DNA of 64,000 nt, taken from the NCBI GenBank assembly GCA_024998595.1, contig JACOEK010000003.1, forward strand, positions 310,001 through 374,000. Direction: 5' to 3'. The translations under genes and the position numbers were made by a program. The notes under the pieces are model-generated. The model was not told the origin of the DNA, searched no databases, and was given only the letters and a program-made list of their open reading frames with translations. Shown here in pieces: positions 28,006 through 53,452 of the stretch; within the stretch, counting starts at the first letter, position 1; the number at the start of each line of letters is the position of its first letter. The stretch comes from Nitrospira sp. Its GTDB lineage: Bacteria; Nitrospirota; Nitrospiria; Nitrospirales; Nitrospiraceae.

Positions 28006-28078
28006 TCGGACGAGGCTTGAGCCGAGTAGAGTGCTTACGAGGTGAGTCACAATCAGAAGACGAAGGTCAGTAGCCTGC

Positions 28079-28134
28079 CAGGCGGTTCAGGAGGCCGTCC
28101 AGGAAGGCCGCCGGCGTCTTTGCTGAACCGCCTG
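28079..28134 (-). repeat. Dispersed hairpin element, minimal copy (D)
   Basis: Terminal inverted repeats CAGGCGGTTCAG/CTGAACCGCCTG with the right-end core GCGGCCTTCCTGGACGGCC; abuts the stop of the gene ending at 28137. Confidence 0.65.
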
Positions 28135-28136
28135 AG

Positions 28137-28544
28137 CTAGCAGGGCTGGCCGTTGAACACACAAGGCTTATATCGCGCGATATCGAACTCGATGTCTTCC
28201 TGATAGACCCGTTCGTTTCCGTTCACGCCGTCCTGATCCGGGTCGTTGAACATCGTGTGATTCCACCAATAGAAGAGTGGAAATTGCTCGGTGTAATACA
28301 CAGGATTACCGTAATTGCTTCTCGTATACTCCTGCACCAAACGTCCAGTGACATAGTCGACCTTCCCGTCTCCGTGCAATGAATAGAGCATGATGAACAT
28401 TCTCGACTCATGATCGTAAAGTTCATCGAGACGGCTGTTCAGGTCCGGCTCGATCGGGAGGGGTTCCGTGGGCCAACCGGGGGCTGGCGCAAGCAGAACG
28501 CATAGCATCAGGACCGCCATTGTGGCAATACGAAGGTTCGTCAT
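28137..28544 (-). CDS. Uncharacterized secreted protein
   Basis: Signal peptide MTNLRIATMAVLMLCVLLAPAPGWP; no family recognised. Confidence 0.65.
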   Translation of the reverse strand: MTNLRIATMAVLMLCVLLAPAPGWPTEPLPIEPDLNSRLDELYDHESRMFIMLYSLHGDGKVDYVTGRLVQEYTRSNYGNPVYYTEQFPLFYWWNHTMFNDPDQDGVNGNERVYQEDIEFDIARYKPCVFNGQPC

Positions 28545-36137: not shown

Positions 36138-36461
36138 ATGTCCATGACAGTTCATTACCGCGTGTCTCTCTCTGCGGATTCCACTACGACCGGCGAAGGG
36201 CGACTGTTGGATCTTTCCCTGGAAGGCTGTCGGATCGAATCCCCCAGACATTTACCCGTCAACACCTATCTCTCGCTTCGCCTCCAGATCTCGCCGGATG
36301 ACATGCCGATTCTGGTCGACCTTGCCGCAGTGCGGTGGACTCGCGGCACGAATTGCGGCGTACATTTTTTGTCCATTCAACCGCTGCAGGCCGCCAGACT
36401 GCAGACGTTTCTCGCCTCCGCGTCGCCCCAAAAACAGCCCCCGGCACCTGGATTGGACTAA
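36138..36461 (+). CDS. PilZ-like domain protein
   Basis: LLDLSLEGCRIESP and LAAVRWTRGTNCGVHFL; similar layout to the PilZ gene at 9747. Confidence 0.65.
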   Translation: MSMTVHYRVSLSADSTTTGEGRLLDLSLEGCRIESPRHLPVNTYLSLRLQISPDDMPILVDLAAVRWTRGTNCGVHFLSIQPLQAARLQTFLASASPQKQPPAPGLD

Positions 36462-36522
36462 ACCAAATCCGCTGAGCAGGGAGCCGAAATTTACCCTTGC
36501 CTTTTGTTTATTGCTTCAGCAT

Positions 36523-36552
36523 CCTAGGGGCAGACCTAGAGATATCCCTAGG
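36523..36552 (+). promoter_or_regulatory. Three CCTAG(G) motifs at 12-bp period
   Basis: CCTAGG at 36523, CCTAG at 36535, CCTAGG at 36547, upstream of the 36592 gene. Confidence 0.45.
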
Positions 36553-36591
36553 TTCTTTGTAGGCGCAATCATTACACTCAGGAGTGAGGTC

Positions 36592-37209
36592 ATGAACGAG
36601 GATAATCAGAGCCGACGAATCGACGTGCTGGCAATCGGCCTATTCGGTCTAGCAGTGGGAGCACTGACCCTGGGAGTCGCCCAGCTCGGGTGGATTCAGC
36701 ACAAGAACATGGTGGGAGCCCTGGTGATTGCGCTCATCTTCGGCGGAGTGGTGCAGCTCCTCGCAGGCATCACCGACATACGCTATAACGAGCAATTGGG
36801 CGGTACCGCGCTCACGATGTACGGCTTCCTCTGGATTACCCTCTGCACCGTCAAACTGGTAAGCGCCAGTTCTACCGTGCAATTTGATGCGGTGCTCTAC
36901 GCGCCGATCAACCTCGTCTACGCCGTCTTTTCCGGCGTGATGATCTTTCTGACGGCCTATCGCAACCTGACGCTCAGCGCTCTGCACGTGGTGATTACCC
37001 TGACATTTCTGGCCACCACCTTCGCGCGGCTTGATTTCATCAGCGAGTTGTTGCCGGGATGGGGCCATATCATCGTTGGCCTGATGGCCTTTTATCATGC
37101 GGTCGGCAGCCTGACGCAGGCCTTCACGGGCAAATCCATTCTTCCGCTGGGCCCGCCGCTCCTCTTTCACGCACATAAGCCCATGCACTCGATCGCCAAG
37201 GCGGTGTAG
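36592..37209 (+). CDS. GPR1/FUN34/YaaH (SatP-like) acetate/succinate transporter family protein
   Basis: Six-TM pattern; LFGLAVGALTLGVAQLGW, GVVQLLAGITDIRYNEQLGGTALTMYGFLWI. Confidence 0.8.
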   Translation: MNEDNQSRRIDVLAIGLFGLAVGALTLGVAQLGWIQHKNMVGALVIALIFGGVVQLLAGITDIRYNEQLGGTALTMYGFLWITLCTVKLVSASSTVQFDAVLYAPINLVYAVFSGVMIFLTAYRNLTLSALHVVITLTFLATTFARLDFISELLPGWGHIIVGLMAFYHAVGSLTQAFTGKSILPLGPPLLFHAHKPMHSIAKAV

Positions 37210-37264
37210 CGCAGGATGAAGACAGCCAGCCGGCTGCGATGACGTACTTCGTTGCGCGTTACTC

Positions 37265-37388
37265 GTAGGCTGTTCAAAAAGGCTGTCCAGCAAGGCCGCA
37301 GCGAGTGAAGAGGGAATCGTACTCTGCTCGTACGGTGAGCCTCTGATCAAAGCGAGAACGCCGCTGGCAGACTTTTTCAACAGCCTAC
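37265..37388 (-). repeat. Dispersed hairpin element, full-length copy (A)
   Basis: Terminal inverted repeats GTAGGCTGTTCAAAAAGGCTGTCCAGC / GCTGGCAGACTTTTTCAACAGCCTAC, central CGTAC...GTACG. Confidence 0.85.
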
Positions 37389-38107
37389 TACCAGTCGGCG
37401 CCAAGGCGATCTACCACGAGTTGATGCACCACAGCCTGAGGACCGAGGCAGGCTAGATACAGAGCGGCCTCCGCGATGTCGAAGGGGTCGATCTTTTCGC
37501 TGGCTGTTCTCGCCTCGGGCGTCGCATCGACCAATTCGTCTGCGACCCCGCCGGGACAAAGCGCGCTGACTTTGATCCGGTAAGATCGGCCTTCGTCAGC
37601 CAGTGACTTCGTCAGCGCCATGATGGCGTGTTTGGAGGCGCTATACGTACCCGTTCCGCTCCAGGCCTGCACACCAGCCACGCTCGACATGTTGATTATG
37701 GTTCCCCCGCCCTGTTTTTTCATCTGAGAGAACCCGGCGCGGCAACACAAGAATGTCCCCCGGACATTGGTTCGCATCACGTCGTCGAACGCATCGGTGC
37801 TTGTCTCCGCAAGCCGCCGGCCGCCGAAGATGCCGGCATTGTTGACCAGGATATCCAGGCGGTCGTACCGACGGATGGTCTCCGCCATGAGCTGCTCGAC
37901 CTGAGATTCGTCGGTAATATCCGTCTGCAGCGCGAATGCCTTGCCTCCTGCTGATTCGATCTGCGCGACCGTCTCCTCACATTTATAAAATCGTCTGGCC
38001 GCGACCACCACCGTCGCCCCTTCCTGAGCAAACCGCAGGGCAATCGCCTTGCCGATTCCGCTGCTGCTCCCGGTCACCACCGCAATTTTTCCCTTCAACC
38101 GGCTCAT
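37388..38107 (-). CDS. SDR family oxidoreductase
   Basis: TGSSSGIGKA, NNAGIF, YSASK motifs. Confidence 0.93.
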   Translation of the reverse strand: MSRLKGKIAVVTGSSSGIGKAIALRFAQEGATVVVAARRFYKCEETVAQIESAGGKAFALQTDITDESQVEQLMAETIRRYDRLDILVNNAGIFGGRRLAETSTDAFDDVMRTNVRGTFLCCRAGFSQMKKQGGGTIINMSSVAGVQAWSGTGTYSASKHAIMALTKSLADEGRSYRIKVSALCPGGVADELVDATPEARTASEKIDPFDIAEAALYLACLGPQAVVHQLVVDRLGADW

Positions 38108-38244
38108 ACTCCCTCCCTGCAATATTTCCGTTATCCTGAGATCACCGTCCGCACCACTGCGGAGGCCTCTGATCGCATACGAGGTGAATCCCGCCCCAAT
38201 GGCTTCGCATCCCGAGTCGGAAACAGGCAGGCTGCAGGGCTGTA

Positions 38245-44712: not shown

Positions 44713-45021
44713 ATGATGAATCTCACCTGGACCGCCATCGAACGGTTGCGCAAGCTCATCGAGGAACATCCTGAAGATCCGGTCGTGAGGATTACGCTGC
44801 GCGACGTGGACGCTCAACGCCTATCCCTGTCGATCACCCTGGAACCTGCGGCACAGGAAGAGGATGAAGTGCAACATATTGAAGGTTTAACCGTGGCGCT
44901 GGATAGGGCGAGCGTGCACCGCACAACCGGAATGACCGTGGACTTTCAGGCGGACAAGGGATTCGCCTTCGTGCATCCCCCGGCGGATGAGCTGGGGCTC
45001 ATCATGCCTAGCAGTAATTAG
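44713..45021 (+). CDS. Cys-less HesB/IscA-like protein
   Basis: LTWTAIERLRKLIEE...VQHIEGLTVALDRASVHRTTGMTVDFQADKGFAFVHP resembles A-type scaffold architecture without Cys ligands. Confidence 0.55.
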   Translation: MMNLTWTAIERLRKLIEEHPEDPVVRITLRDVDAQRLSLSITLEPAAQEEDEVQHIEGLTVALDRASVHRTTGMTVDFQADKGFAFVHPPADELGLIMPSSN

Positions 45022-45208
45022 CCGGGATGCTGAAAAACACCGCCGCCTTGCTGAAGACACTGGGCGCTCACCGGCTCGCGCCCCTGCGCAAACCTGACGC
45101 TCCTTATTCTTCGCGTCGCGCACCTCGCAGGCTGAACGTATCGCAAGGACACGCCTCGCCCACTCGCATTGCTGCGGCCTTGCCGGACAGCCTTTTTTGA
45201 CATTTTGT
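45022..45208 (+). repeat. Dispersed hairpin element, diverged/expanded copy (C)
   Basis: Left end GGGATGCTGAAAAACACCGCC; right end TTGCTGCGGCCTTGCCGGACAGCCTTTTTTGACAT; starts right after the TAG stop at 45019-45021. Confidence 0.65.
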
Positions 45209-47077: not shown

Positions 47078-48634
47078 ATGCCGGTCTCACGTGAGATGCG
47101 GAACCCTATGAACGCATCCCACGCGCCCCTTGACGCCCCGCAGCAAGAGCACAATCTGTCGCTCTCACGCCTGATCATCGTATCCAACCGCGAGCCCTAC
47201 GAACACCGGCTAGTGAAGAATCACCTGATCTGGGAACGTGCATCGGGTGGACTCATTTCTGCGCTTGACCCCATGATGCGGCGGCTGGGTGGGACCTGGA
47301 TCGCCTGGGGTAGCGGCAAGGCGGATCGCGATGTGGTGAACCAGGATATGGTCGTCGAAGTGCCCCCCGACGCCCCGACCTACCGCTTACGCCGTGTATG
47401 GCTGGAGAACGGCGAAGTGAAGGGCGGCTATCAGGGGTACGCCAACCAAGTCCTCTGGCCCCTCTGCCACCTCACCCTGGACCGCGTGGCTTACCGGAAA
47501 GCATTTTGGCATGCCTACCAGGCCATGAACGCGCGCTTCGCAGACGAGGTTCTCCGGGAGCTGGCTGACAAACCGGGGTTCGTCTGGATTCACGATTTTC
47601 ATCTGGCGTTGCTCCCCGGCCTCATCAAAGCCTCCCTGCCCGCCCAGCCGGTGGCGATTTTCTGGCATACGCCCTGGCCCGGGCCCGATGCCTTTCGGAT
47701 TCTGCCTGAACGTCGAGAACTCCTCGAATCCTTATTGGCCGCCGATCTGATAATGTTCCAGACCCAAAACTTTCTGCACTGCTTTATTGAATGCGCGAAA
47801 GAGTTCCTGGGTGCGGATGTCGTGCATGACGACCATCACATCGACTATAAAGGTCGCCGCACCAGGCTGGTCGCTCGCCCCATCAGCATCAGTTATCAAG
47901 CGTGGGCCGAACGGGCGCAATCGCCGCAAGTCACGCGTGCCATGGACGTCCTGCGCAATCTGCACATCTTTCAGCCGACAGTACGCATCGGGCTCGGCGT
48001 CGATCGGCTCGACTATACGAAAGGGCTCCTCAAACGGTTGTGGGCCATCGATGCGTTCTTCCAGCAGTATCCGCAGTATCGAGGCCATTTCACCTTTATC
48101 CAGATCGCGGTGCCGACGAGAGGTGATGTCGAAACCTATCGCAGCTATCGAGAGCTGATCCGCGAAACGGTCAACGAGATCAATATGCGATATGGCACGA
48201 TCTCTCATCCTGGCAGCCCGCAAGCCTCGCGCTGGCGGCCGATCGAGTTTCGAGAGGGGCGCATCGGGATGGATACCCTGGCGGCCTATTACCGCATGGC
48301 CGACCTGGCGTTGGTAAGCTCAGTCTATGATGGCATGAACTTGGTAGCGAAGGAGTATGTCGCCAGCCAGGTCGAAGAGAAAGGCGTGCTGCTGGTGAGC
48401 CATATGGCCGGCGCGGCAGAAGAATTGACCGAGGCGCTGCTCATCAATCCCTACGACCCGGAAGGGGTGGCCGACTCCATTCGCCAGGCGTTGGAGATGC
48501 CGTTCGCCGAACGCCGCGACCGGATGCGACGCATGCGCACCTATCTCGGGGCGCATGACATTCGTGCCTGGGCCGATGACTGCCTGCGCGACGCAGGAAT
48601 TCTCCCACCTCATGACAGTCCCGCCCTTGAATAA
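47078..48634 (+). CDS. otsA: GT20 glycosyltransferase, trehalose-6-phosphate synthase-like
   Basis: IIVSNREP, WIHDFHLALLPGLI, FWHTPWPGPDAFRILP, GLGVDRLDYTKGL, SSVYDGMNLVAKEYVA; start may be the internal MNASHAP. Confidence 0.88.
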   Translation: MPVSREMRNPMNASHAPLDAPQQEHNLSLSRLIIVSNREPYEHRLVKNHLIWERASGGLISALDPMMRRLGGTWIAWGSGKADRDVVNQDMVVEVPPDAPTYRLRRVWLENGEVKGGYQGYANQVLWPLCHLTLDRVAYRKAFWHAYQAMNARFADEVLRELADKPGFVWIHDFHLALLPGLIKASLPAQPVAIFWHTPWPGPDAFRILPERRELLESLLAADLIMFQTQNFLHCFIECAKEFLGADVVHDDHHIDYKGRRTRLVARPISISYQAWAERAQSPQVTRAMDVLRNLHIFQPTVRIGLGVDRLDYTKGLLKRLWAIDAFFQQYPQYRGHFTFIQIAVPTRGDVETYRSYRELIRETVNEINMRYGTISHPGSPQASRWRPIEFREGRIGMDTLAAYYRMADLALVSSVYDGMNLVAKEYVASQVEEKGVLLVSHMAGAAEELTEALLINPYDPEGVADSIRQALEMPFAERRDRMRRMRTYLGAHDIRAWADDCLRDAGILPPHDSPALE

Positions 48635-50684
48635 TCGAGGCCGAGCCGCAACCATCGAACCGCAGTACGCTACAGGCCGACGACTCTTCCTATCGGTGCT
48701 GCTGAGTCTCTGGACCGTCCTGAGCGGCTGCACCCCGCTCTCCAAACTGTTCGCCGTTACGCCACCACCGGAGCAGCAAGTGGATCGGCAACAACAAACG
48801 ATGGTGGCCAGGCTGGCTCCGCGGATCGAGGCCGAACTGCAAGACAATCTCAACGTGATGCTCCCGGCAGTGCGTAAAACCCTGGCGGACCAGACGAACA
48901 AGCCGGCGAAGTTCAAGCGCGATATGGTGCTGGACACACTGGCTGATCCTTGGAAGGGCCTCACTACGATCGAACAGACCGGTCTGTTGGCGGCTACAGC
49001 TGCCGAATCGGGAATCGAGGAACTGCCCGCCGTCATCGAAATTCTCGAGGAAGGGATGGATCGAACCGGTGCCCCTTTCGCGCCGCTCACGTTTCCGGTG
49101 ACGTTGGCGCCTGAGGACCTTCTGACTTTTCTGACCGACGTGCTTGAACATGCCTATCAGGACCGGGAGCAGGCTCTGCGCCACCTGTCGCCACAGGATC
49201 GGGATTTTCTTTTCACCCAGGCCCGCCCGTTGGCGGAACAATTCACCCCGCAAATCACCCCACCGGCCAGGCTGGCGGAGGCCGACGCCGCCGTCCGCTA
49301 TGCGACGCTCCTCATGCAGCAGGTGGATTATGCGTCGCTGATTGCCGCCGCGCAGCGATTGGCACGCCTCGGCAACCGGAAGTTTTTGCAACAATTGGAC
49401 ATTGCGCTCCACCATCGAAAGCCGGTCACCCAGACGATTCCCGGTATCACCGGAGATCTGCTCCTGGTCCAGCAGACCTCCTATGGCCTCCTGGTGATAG
49501 GTGGCCACGGCCCCAATACGTATGACCTCGACAAGGGCGCCGCGCTCATCATCGATCTTGGCGGCAATGACACCTATCGTGGGCTCATCGGCGCCAGCCC
49601 GAACAGCGACCTGGGCAACAGTGTGGTGATCGACCTGAGCGGGAACGATTTGTATCAGCCCTTCGCGCTCGGGTTGGCCACGGGGCGCGCCGGCATCGGC
49701 ATCGTCATCGATCATAGCGGAGACGATACCTATCGGTTGGCACCGGGATCCGGAGGGGTCGGCTTTGCAGGGCTGGGTATCCTGTATGATGGAGCAGGAC
49801 AGGATGTCTATGAAGGAAGCCGCTTTACCCAAGGCGCAGCCTTCGGTGGGTTCGGCCTCCTGGTGGATCGCGCCGGCGACGATCGCTATACGAGTTTCGG
49901 CTATGCGCTGGGCTTCGGCGGACCATTGGGGGTAGGCGCCCTCATTGATGTTTCCGGTAACGATTCGTACGAATGCGGTGGAAAATATCCGAGTGCCTAC
50001 AATGAAACGGACGCGCCGAATGCCCGCCCAAACGACCCCGTCTTTCAATACGATTGCTTCGGGCTTGGCACCGGCGCGGGGCTCCGCATCTTCAGCAAGC
50101 TACAGGCGCAGCGCGCGCAAAGTCTGGCCGGCGGATGGGGCTTGCTGATCGATTTGGCCGGCCGGGACCGTTACCGCAGCGCAAACTTTTCGCAAGGACA
50201 CGGGTATTTTTTCGGCCTGGGGGTGAAACTCGATCTGGCCGGCGATGACGACCATCAGGCGGCGAGGTACGGTCTGGGAACCGCGGCACATTTCGGCGTG
50301 GGCCTCAGCCTCGATTATCAGGGCAAGGATCGGTACGGTTCCAAGGGGCCATTCTATAACGGCGGCACCGCCTGGGACGGGAGCGTCGCGCTGGCCATAG
50401 ACGGCGGCCCGGACAGCGACTTGTATGACCTGCCCGCCTCGACCGGATTGGGCATGGCTGATCTGGGCGGCTGGGGGCTCTTCATCGAAGAAGGCGGGGC
50501 CGATCAGTACTTTGTCGGTCGCGGCCTCGGACAAGGAGCGGATACGAGCATCGGCGCATTTTTCGACATGGAAGGACGAGACGACTATTCTTCTGTTTCG
50601 GTTCCGAATGGTAATGCGCGACCGGAACGGCTCAATCGAAAGACTTACATTGAGAACGGAGGCAGCCTCTTCATCGACCGATAG
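48612..50684 (+). CDS. Lipoprotein with tandem G-x-D-x-x-G-x-D-x-Y solenoid repeats
   Basis: Lipobox-like LWTVLSGC, then ~10 repeats such as IIDLGGNDTYRG, VIDLSGNDLYQP, VIDHSGDDTYRL, LVDRAGDDRYTS, LIDVSGNDSYEC. Confidence 0.8.
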   Translation: MTVPPLNNRGRAATIEPQYATGRRLFLSVLLSLWTVLSGCTPLSKLFAVTPPPEQQVDRQQQTMVARLAPRIEAELQDNLNVMLPAVRKTLADQTNKPAKFKRDMVLDTLADPWKGLTTIEQTGLLAATAAESGIEELPAVIEILEEGMDRTGAPFAPLTFPVTLAPEDLLTFLTDVLEHAYQDREQALRHLSPQDRDFLFTQARPLAEQFTPQITPPARLAEADAAVRYATLLMQQVDYASLIAAAQRLARLGNRKFLQQLDIALHHRKPVTQTIPGITGDLLLVQQTSYGLLVIGGHGPNTYDLDKGAALIIDLGGNDTYRGLIGASPNSDLGNSVVIDLSGNDLYQPFALGLATGRAGIGIVIDHSGDDTYRLAPGSGGVGFAGLGILYDGAGQDVYEGSRFTQGAAFGGFGLLVDRAGDDRYTSFGYALGFGGPLGVGALIDVSGNDSYECGGKYPSAYNETDAPNARPNDPVFQYDCFGLGTGAGLRIFSKLQAQRAQSLAGGWGLLIDLAGRDRYRSANFSQGHGYFFGLGVKLDLAGDDDHQAARYGLGTAAHFGVGLSLDYQGKDRYGSKGPFYNGGTAWDGSVALAIDGGPDSDLYDLPASTGLGMADLGGWGLFIEEGGADQYFVGRGLGQGADTSIGAFFDMEGRDDYSSVSVPNGNARPERLNRKTYIENGGSLFIDR

Positions 50685-50807
50685 CAGGATGGTGCAAATG
50701 CCCGCCAGCCTTGTTCTCGCATCGTCAAGAGTCTCAACGTACCCCGAGGGTACGCCTCACCTCTTCACTCGCTGCGGCCTCGCTGGACGGCCATTTTGAC
50801 TATCCTG
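50685..50807 (+). repeat. Dispersed hairpin element, full-length copy (B)
   Basis: Ends CAGGATGGTGCAAATGCCCGCCAGC / GCTGGACGGCCATTTTGACTATCCTG, central CGTACCC-CGA-GGGTACG. Confidence 0.85.
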
Positions 50808-51023
50808 TAAGCCTGCGCATCGTTGACTTGCACGCTCACTTCTCGAATGAGGACACACCCCCAAAGACTCCGGCGGTCAAGCATTCGAACTCCCATCACA
50901 ACCGCCGCTTGACTCCCCTGCCTCCATGGCTATCTCAAAGAACGGTGATCAACGGGAACGAACATCATTCCTCGTGACCGATTCATCTTCCTTGTGATGA
51001 CCACCTCAGATCTGGAGGACGAT

Positions 51024-53420
51024 ATGACCGATTCGAACGGCCCCATACTCACGAACCTTCCGATACTCCCGCTGAAACGAACGGTGCTGTTCCCCGGCAC
51101 GATGATGCCGCTGACGGTCGGGCGCGACCGTTCCATCGCCGCCGTCGAAGCCGCGCTCAAAACGGAAGACAAGACATTGCTCGTCGTGGCGCAGCGGGAT
51201 GCGCAGACCGATCAACCGATGCTCGAAGACCTGTACACGATCGGGACCAAAGCCGTCATCAAGCAAACGGCCCGAACCTCGGAAGGTCATTATAATATTT
51301 TGATCCAGGGATTGGAGCGGTTCGTGCTGTTGAAGCTCGACCAGGTGGATCCCTATCTGCAAGCGCGGGTGAAGCAGTTGCCGGCTCCCAGCGAGCGGAA
51401 TACGGAGGTCGAAGCGCTGCATCGGGCAATCCTCGACATCATCACGGAACTGCCCAAACTGATTCAGACTCCGGGCGTGCATGAAGCCGTGGCGGCGCTG
51501 GGAACCGAAGAAGACCCCGTGCTGTTGGCCTACCGCATTGCCTCGTTGTTGAACCTCACATTGGACGGCGAACAGCAGTTGCTGGAAGCATCGACCCGCG
51601 CGGATCTGTTGCGTGGGCTCTACGCGGCGTTGTCGCGAGAGGTTCAGATTCTTCAGTTGCGGGACAAGATCACCAGCGAAGCCAGGGAGAAACTCGGCAA
51701 AACCCAGCGGGAATATCTCCTGCGCGAGCAGCTGAAGACCATTCAGCAGGAGTTGGGCGAAAGCAACGGTGAGGAAGACGAGGTTGCCGCGCTGAGAAAG
51801 AAGGTCCAGGAGGCCGATCTTCCTGAACATGTGAGAAAAGAAACCGATCGCGAGTTGACCCGACTGGCGAAAACGCCCAGCGCGTCGCCGGAGCATCAGG
51901 TCATCCGCAGCTACCTGGAACTGGTCCTCGAACTGCCGTGGAATAAATCTTCCGAAGAAGGGTTGGACCTCGCACACGTTCGAAAGGTGTTGAACGAGGA
52001 TCACTACGGCATCAAGGAAGTGAAAGAACGGATCGTGGAGCACCTGGCAGTTTTGAAATTGAACCCCTCTGCCAAGGCACCGATCCTTTGCCTGGTCGGC
52101 CCTCCCGGTGTGGGGAAGACCAGTTTGGGTCAATCCATTGCCAAGTCCATGGGGAGGACCTTCGAGCGCTTCAGCCTCGGCGGGTTGCATGACGAGGGCG
52201 AACTGCGCGGCCACCGCCGCACGTACGTCGGCGCCTTGCCCGGACGGATTGTCCAAGCAGTGCGGCGGGCCGGCGTGAACAATCCCGTCATCATGCTGGA
52301 CGAGGTCGATAAGCTCGGGCGCGACTTCCGCGGCGACCCCGCGGCGGCACTGTTGGAGATTCTGGATCCCGCGCAGAACCATACGTTCCGCGACCATTAT
52401 CTCGATCTGCCGTTCGACCTGTCGAAGGTGTTTTTCATCACGACGGCAAATACGCTGGAGACCCTCTCGCAGCCCTTGTTGGATCGCATGGAAATCATCC
52501 GCGTGAATGGCTACAGCGAACGGGAGAAACGGGAAATCGCCTTGCGGTACCTCTGGCCGAGACGCCTGAAGGAAGCCGGTCTCAAGGCAGCAGAGGTGAA
52601 TCTGCCCGATCTCGTGCTCGACCATATCATCGGCCGGTACACGAGGGAATCCGGCGTGCGGCAACTGGAGCAGATGTTGGGCCGCATTACGCGAAAAGTA
52701 GCGGTGACCTTTGCCGATCGGCCTGCCGATTCCCCGGCCGCACCGGTCGAGATCACGCAACCGCTTCTGGACGAATGGCTCGGGCAGGAACGATTCCAAC
52801 CGGAAGAGGCGCGAAAGAGTCTACCGGCTGGTGTCGCCACCGGTATGGCCTGGACGCCGACAGGCGGTGATGTGCTCTATATCGAAACGACCCTGCTGCC
52901 CGGCAGTCACGAGTTGACGCTCACCGGACAACTCGGAGACGTCATGCAGGAATCGGCTCGCGCGGCGCGCAGCTACCTCTGGTCGCATGCCGAAAGCATG
53001 GGGCTGGACATCTCGCGCTTCAAACGGAACGGTGTGCATATCCACGTCCCTTCAGGAGCTATTCCGAAAGACGGCCCTTCGGCCGGTATTACGATGGCGA
53101 CCGCGCTGGCCTCGGCCTATGTCGGCAAACCGGTGCGGAGCGACACGGCCATGACCGGCGAGATCAGCCTCACGGGCCTCGTTCTGCCCGTCGGCGGGAT
53201 CAAAGAGAAGGTGCTGGCCGCTCATCGCGCCGGCATCAGGCGGATCATTCTCCCGAAGGCCAATGAGAAAGACCTGAAGGAAGTGCCGCAGGAAGTTCGC
53301 GATGAACTCACGATCATTCCTGTTGAGCGCATCGAAGAGGTGCTTCCGGCGGCATTCAACCAGGATGCGGCCTCGTCGACGGACAAACACGAGCCCGTGG
53401 CGACGTCCACCGCATCGTAA
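51024..53420 (+). CDS. lon: ATP-dependent protease Lon
   Basis: [20 protein letters not shown], catalytic [37 protein letters not shown]. Confidence 0.97.
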
Positions 53421-53425
53421 GCTGT

Positions 53426-53452
53426 GGGCCCCGGCTGAGAAGCCGGGGCCCC
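53426..53452 (+). terminator. GC-rich hairpin after lon
   Basis: GGGCCCCGGCT-GAGA-AGCCGGGGCCC; only a weak T tract. Confidence 0.55.

Follow-up and report, generated by a model that had tools for sequence, protein, structure and literature searches.

A conserved hairpin family directly behind stop codons in Nitrospira: probable CTAG/YTAR-targeting miniature transposons, with some copies probably kept as gene 3'-end elements

The 64,000-nucleotide stretch of a Nitrospira sp. genome analysed in this study (contig JACOEK010000003.1, positions 310,001 to 374,000; hereafter the window) contains four members, copies A to D, of a dispersed hairpin family. These hairpins are probably MITEs that target CTAG, or more generally YTAR, and that carry a conserved hairpin, some copies of which have been retained as elements of gene 3' ends. 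The family had been recognised in the initial annotation from the letters of the window alone, and it proved to be real: A and B are full copies, C is a variant, D is a short deletion derivative, and all four start 0–2 nt past a TAG stop, as originally described (Table 1).

Table 1. Hairpin copies and adjoining genes in the window
Feature	Position	Strand	Basis or remark
Copy A, complete 124-bp hairpin	37265..37388	- (read 5' to 3' from the proximal gene)	covariance model and fold
Proximal gene of A, short-chain dehydrogenase of the SDR type (assigned from its sequence)	37388..38122	-	TAG stop at 37388-37390
Convergent neighbour of A	36298..37209	+	its TAG lies 56 nt from the distal hairpin end
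Copy B, complete hairpin	50685..50807	+	covariance model and fold; directly 3' of TAG (50682-50684)
Proximal gene of B, 709 aa, uncharacterised	48555..50684	+	ORF
Copy C, variant carrying an extra apical module (GACACTGGGCGCTCACCGG..), about 187 bp	45022..45208	+	after TAG 45019-45021
Proximal ORF of C, 102 aa	44713..45021	+	ORF
Copy D, deletion derivative in which the outer stem and a single core arm (GTCCAGGAAGGCCGC) remain	28079..28134	-	2 nt past TAG 28137-28139
Proximal gene of D, 196 aa	28137..28727	-	ORF

The covariance model built here (129 positions, 39 pairs) matches copy A at 37263-37390 (131.6 bits, E 1.7e-29) and copy B at 50682-50810 (121 bits, E 6e-27). In copy C, the lower core alone is matched (45113-45183, 27.6 bits, E 1.6e-4), the apical part being the extra module, and copy D is matched at 28076-28137 (18.7 bits, E 0.02) with a fold z of -3.7. 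Relative to dinucleotide shuffles, the fold z values are about -5 on both strands of copy A, of which the plus strand folds better, and -6.7 and -5.1 on the two strands of copy B. Read from its dehydrogenase side, copy A consists of TAG, TAGGCTGTTGAAAAAGTCTGCCAGC, the hairpin, and GCTGGACAGCCTTTTTGAACAGCCTA; the SDR locus has orthologues in 28 genomes. No Rfam family was found at or above the gathering cut-off in the window, 11 loci from several clades gave no relevant weak match, and copy A had no match among plasmids. The apical module of copy C is also present in L012, L022, L023, L077, and L099, and many hairpins (copy C, L012, L022, L023, L098-L104, L387, and L404) have an apical module (GACACTGCCGGCTCACCGACTCGCCGGCGTCCACAAACGTGGCGCTCATT..) in much the same position, resembling an exchangeable or nested part. 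A short insert, GGGACAAGAGCCTGTCTTGGCAGGCTCGGGGTGGGTGGGTAAGAAGG, is found in the apical loop of L028, L100, L102-L104, L397, and L404. Elsewhere in the window, a perfect 22-nt inverted repeat (GCCCCGGCTGAGAAGCCGGGGC, 53428-53449) is located just past an 808-aa ORF ending at 53420 and is probably a plain terminator stem.

A blastn-type search of the window's genome (G000) identified 33 places, and the covariance model gave 71 matches at E <= 0.01, i.e. about 70 copies, which excludes the possibility that the family ends with the four copies of the window. Matches occur in each of the 29 genus genomes searched, with 38–112 per genome except in G004, a complete genome with only 2; this near-absence is a useful natural case for finding what the element requires. 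At the level of the phylum, 136 of 296 genomes have a match at E <= 1e-4. The length of the copies varies by single bases (122-126 nt); an ORF running through the element, seen by eye in one copy, is unlikely to be coding in view of this variation. Two or three hairpins are occasionally found back to back past one stop (L045/L047, L049/L051, and L461), as if one had been inserted at the end of another.

Genes were called from ORF length and codon-position GC (coding-like ORFs), with no annotation used. In the window's genome, the gene-side end of the hairpin is located exactly past a stop in 25 of 67 copies (TAG 19, TGA 5, and TAA 1) and between -1 and +2 nt from a stop in 39; the corresponding numbers in N. 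defluvii are 23 and 33 of 69 copies, and a background sample of 213 N. defluvii genes ends with TGA (82), TAA (74), or TAG (57). When the direction of the hairpin is set by its conserved motifs, the stop is touched nearly always by the same end. TAG and the 0–2 nt spacing are thus enriched genome-wide, in agreement with the original proposal of an element that is mobile and replicated and is linked to the 3' ends of genes. Convergent gaps, which hold three of the four window copies, are not preferred in general (27 of 69, 39%, versus 66 of 201 genes, 33%). The neighbours of the hairpins are ordinary chromosomal genes, including urease and ThiS/CysK/MoeB-like genes, and some copies are located inside operons (ureC/ureF). 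For instance, the hairpin at L166:9565-9696 lies within an operon, between a ureC-like gene (TAG, offset 0) and the next urease gene, where it may set differing expression levels in the urease operon.

It had also been suggested that the elements supply the stop codon by insertion. At the lolA and SDR loci, the last residue of the protein is the same in genomes that have the element and in genomes that lack it, and a truncating, stop-creating insertion was therefore rejected; because the orthologous proteins of these two proximal genes end alike in both states, the stop predates the insertion. In most genomes, the SDR locus is empty or contains only a 14-nt remnant. At the lolA locus of four genomes (L360, L361, L367, and L373 in G014, G007, G027, and G011, respectively), a different palindromic element, CCCGGACTATTCATGAAT..ATTCATGAATAATCCGGG, has been inserted at the same TAG, and the TAG recurs on its far side in L367; this is another stop-landing family.

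Young copies reveal the unit in which the hairpin is carried. In N. defluvii, these are 199-bp units with 96-100% identity over about 207 bp and with matching NTAG on both sides: the hairpin is followed by a tail ending in GAGTTTTTCCGCARCCTG and then by the same four bases as at the left. A young unit of about 200 bp thus comprises the hairpin of about 125 nt, a tail of about 60-75 bp, and an inverted repeat at the opposite end. When this end of the unit was searched for, it occurred as inverted pairs separated by about 200, 273, 320-350, or 1325 bp. Insertion sequences of 1325 bp, which contain one transposase ORF and are flanked by CTAG/CTAG or TTAG/TTAG, are likewise bounded by GAGTTTTTCNGCANCCTGNTAG, and their protein matches DUF772 and DDE_Tnp_1. 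Inverted pairs of the same end bound both the 199-348-bp units and a 1325-bp insertion sequence (G001 and G020), one end of the units being the hairpin foot. Exact 4-bp duplications were found at 40 units from the genus and family (CTAG 29, TTAG 6, CTAA 4, and GTAG 1), and 39 of these 40 correspond to YTAR, which is the target duplication of IS5 (PMC10359306). Each strand of YTAR contains TAG or TAA, and therefore insertion at a stop re-creates that stop; the young units, with their 4-bp YTAR duplications, are therefore MITEs whose target is itself a stop. They insert in either orientation, and of the 40 units, 8 have a gene stop beside the hairpin alone, 12 beside the tail alone, 1 at both sides, and 19 at neither.

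Solitary old copies, including A to D of the window, no longer have a visible 4-bp duplication. All copies in the window's genome look old and are mutually diverged, the best between-copy match being mostly 70-90%. No cognate IS5-like transposase was found in this genome at E <= 1e-30, although one is present in 12 of the 29 genus genomes; because it is absent there, we infer the mobiliser of these copies. Some old copies of N. defluvii still have a degraded right end, located precisely where the young units have theirs, with offset 62 giving the strongest signal of all positions (z 4.0); this signal is clear in N. defluvii and weak in the window's genome. Old copies are likely to descend from units of the young type. 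In G145, which belongs to another family of the order, the units (L347-L356) end differently (GGGAATGTTGAA../..TTCAACAGGCCC) and are flanked by what appear to be 5-bp duplications, such as ATTCA, ATAAA, and ATTGG. Judging from these ends, the hairpin of G145 rides on another type of transposon, and therefore no single transposase would explain all copies.

On the basis of these features, we propose that an IS5-group DDE transposase, acting in trans, would place the unit of about 200 bp at YTAR, mostly CTAG, duplicating 4 bp. Where a unit landed on a stop codon, the stop would be re-made by the duplication and the protein would remain intact, the insertion itself being neutral in orientation. 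The tail would decay with time, copies with the hairpin directly past the stop would be retained in preference to others, and selection would then maintain both their sequence and their pairing. The likeliest benefit to the host would be that the hairpin stands in for the gene's own 3'-end signal, displaced by the insertion, and that as a 3'-end structure it limits read-through, antisense entry, or 3' decay.

Against this MITE explanation, the old copies at TGA stops, including the five at offset 0 noted above, are inconsistent with YTAR unless the stops changed later, and the insertion step does not predict the replication-strand bias of old copies. With the two replication halves confirmed by GC skew, 72 of 90 old copies face one way, compared with 131 of 213 genes (p = 0.002). 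This bias, together with the fixed orientation of old copies and the lack of a visible duplication at solitary ones, would be expected if the hairpins moved by directional single-strand transposition of the Y1/HUH-like kind (IS200/IS605 or REP/RAYT), which would place single hairpins 3' of TAG on one of the replication strands and leave no duplication. We regard such a process as very unlikely. No Y1 transposase (RAYT, PF01797) was found in G000, G004, G006, G008, G013, G016, G022, G024, G026, or G027, and G000, G006, G013, G016, and others among these carry about 70-80 copies; moreover, 4-bp duplications flank the young units, which show no strand bias (11 of 22), and some old copies are still followed by remnants of the right end of the long unit.

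The sequence of the hairpin is conserved well beyond its surroundings. Among nine genomes with a hairpin past the TAG of lolA, mean pairwise identity is 0.913 in the hairpin, 0.620 at fourfold sites, and 0.591 in the next 75 nt, a rate comparison that is blurred by visible between-species recombination at this locus and in which single pairs are not clean. Between the window's genome and N. defluvii, 34 pairs of copies matched by their flanks (three on one side only) are identical at 0.741 of hairpin positions and 0.460 of the next 60 nt. Double changes that preserve pairing number 141 in 32 pairs, against 38.9 +- 5.1 expected from shuffles (maximum 56 in 500). Selection on structure would be the simplest reading of these double changes. 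Intra-palindrome repair could be the source of some of them, a rival for the paired part of the hairpin but not for the unpaired core motifs. The earlier suggestion of an mRNA 3'-end element gains partial support, as copies at orthologous loci are much better conserved than the non-coding DNA beside them and their pairing is kept; any molecular role is putative. Conservation and orientation suggest that the hairpin may by now have a function at the end of the gene.

The same data bear on the reading that the copies are purely selfish MITE debris, in which abutment to stops would result from the YTAR target combined with purifying selection on genes, the apparent covariation would result from template-switch repair of imperfect palindromes, and the hairpin would be functionless. 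Half of the young units are already at stops and show no orientation bias, insertions are often lost, as at the SDR locus, G004 has retained only two copies, and palindrome repair is an established mutational process. Such an origin is nevertheless unlikely to account for all observations: it predicts neither the orientation bias of old copies, which touch the stop with the hairpin side (39 of 67 in the window's genome and 33 of 69 in N. defluvii, versus 8:12 for hairpin and tail sides in young units), nor the 91% identity of the lolA hairpin versus 62% at fourfold sites, nor the conservation of unpaired core motifs across phyla. Retention of some CTAG/YTAR-targeting MITEs as 3'-end elements remains our preferred reading.

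Several features bear on the form in which a retained hairpin might act. The Nitrospira consensus contains TGAAAA...TTTTGA beside a GC-rich CCAGC/GCTGG stem on both strands, and this arrangement at the 3' ends of genes is what would be expected of a bidirectional intrinsic terminator, in which an A-tract, a GC stem, and a T-tract halt RNA polymerase behind the gene on either strand. This role, which had also been put forward at the outset, agrees with the U-tract of the Nitrospira copies, although the U/T-tract is missing in several relatives (G045, G109, and Desulfuromonadales). A simple terminator scan did not flag copy A, copies are located inside operons (ureC-hairpin-ureF) with little room for a promoter, and convergent gaps are not clearly enriched. 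We therefore consider a terminator function possible but doubtful. The RNAalifold consensus is -34.8 kcal/mol for the gene-sense strand and -48.8 kcal/mol for the antisense strand, and two core pairs are G.U on the antisense strand and vary as GU/GC/AU and GU/UG. These values point to the antisense strand as the putative folded strand, as RNA or as single-stranded DNA. If it acts as RNA, transcripts arriving from downstream would fold, be bound by protein, and shield the gene end from antisense transcription; the stronger antisense fold, the variation at the core pairs, and a possible tandem G.A beside the apical stem are consistent with such a role. It is quite unlikely, however, given that the wobble asymmetry outside the core pairs is small (169 G.U versus 130 A.C) and that downstream genes are mostly co-directional.

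Relatives of the hairpin are present in other phyla. When 84,980 species genomes were scanned for CTCAACGTAC-N-GTACGCCTC, at least 119 stretches were identified, of which about 11 are estimated to occur by chance, and among the matches listed, the model confirmed 15 of 22 less expected records at E < 0.001. One of these 15 (L266) is labelled Nitrosospira and contains a copy of the Nitrospira-like type. Relatives occur in Rokubacteria (51 and 15 copies per genome), Firmicutes, Desulfuromonadales (15), a CPR bacterium, and Treponema; further counts per genome are 27 in Peptococcaceae (about 20 nearly identical), 22 in Uhrbacteria, 7 and 3 in Clostridia, 4 in T. vincentii, and 3 in Methylomirabilota, and one Clostridia genome gave 0 model matches. 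Across phyla, the outer stems differ completely and the core, CGTT.. / CAACGTAC-GTACGCCTC / GCCTTG, is kept. Many of these copies also touch a TAG, and in Peptococcaceae and Rokubacteria the unit again consists of CTAG, hairpin, tail, inverted repeat, and CTAG. We tentatively raise the idea, with less than even confidence, that the family represents an as yet unnamed class of small transposons, found across the bacteria and specialised for stop codons, in which the duplication restores the stop, the element brings its own structured 3' end, spread is of low cost, and domestication has occurred repeatedly; the conserved core (CGTTCTC .. CAACGTAC/GTACGCCTC .. GGCCTTGC) would then be read by a host or transposon factor common to many phyla.

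If the proposed mechanism is right, it would explain how repeats can be packed behind stop codons without damage to genes, and the insertions would form a natural series from young to old by which the change from a selfish element to a useful 3'-end part could be timed. It would also add to genome annotation a structured element that has so far carried no label and that reaches dozens of copies per genome in Nitrospira and in certain other phyla, and provide a testable link between the target choice of a transposon and the 3'-end architecture of genes.

We found no described family that the conserved hairpin matches and no name for it in Rfam or in the literature searched; searches of open-licence papers on Nitrospira repeats, the core motif, and stop-codon MITEs gave no description of it. 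Integron attC sites are structured sites behind genes with a fixed orientation and a strand-specific fold, and in this respect they are similar to the hairpins. Same-orientation clusters of the hairpin are suggestive of integron cassettes, but the neighbours are ordinary operons rather than cassette arrays, and this candidate was rejected. ERIC elements are imperfect palindromes of about 127 bp located near gene ends, as is the hairpin family. They are not known to share sequence with the hairpins. ERIC copies at 3' ends in Yersinia change mRNA levels, but their hosts are different, and the review describing this effect mentions neither stop codons nor CTAG (PMC10969869). The same review describes QMITE2 of Coxiella, a MITE that is located mostly in 3' untranslated regions, as the hairpins are, but that is described there for Coxiella, is shown with direct repeats of 7-9 bp, and is given no stop-codon target (PMC10969869).

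The resemblance to REP and MITE classes noted initially divides between the two. Like the REP/REPIN-RAYT system, the hairpins are extragenic palindromes with many copies and vertical persistence, and some REPs are located close behind stops (PMC12306157). Unlike the hairpins of about 125 nt, REPs are 20-40 bp in length (PMC3733652), and a RAYT/REPIN origin was ruled out, as the genome contains no Y1 transposase and the young units carry target-site duplications. The MITE side of the resemblance is retained, based on the shared ends and the YTAR duplication. The hairpin family differs from IS5-group MITEs in possessing a conserved core hairpin of about 125 nt that is unrelated to the interior of the insertion sequence and in occurring in many phyla with differing outer stems. 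Like these MITEs, it is short, has no visible coding capacity, has ends in common with a full IS5-like element, and generates a 4-bp YTAR duplication. Although the cognate transposase is absent from the window's genome, these end and target features suggest that the family works in the manner of an IS5-type MITE.
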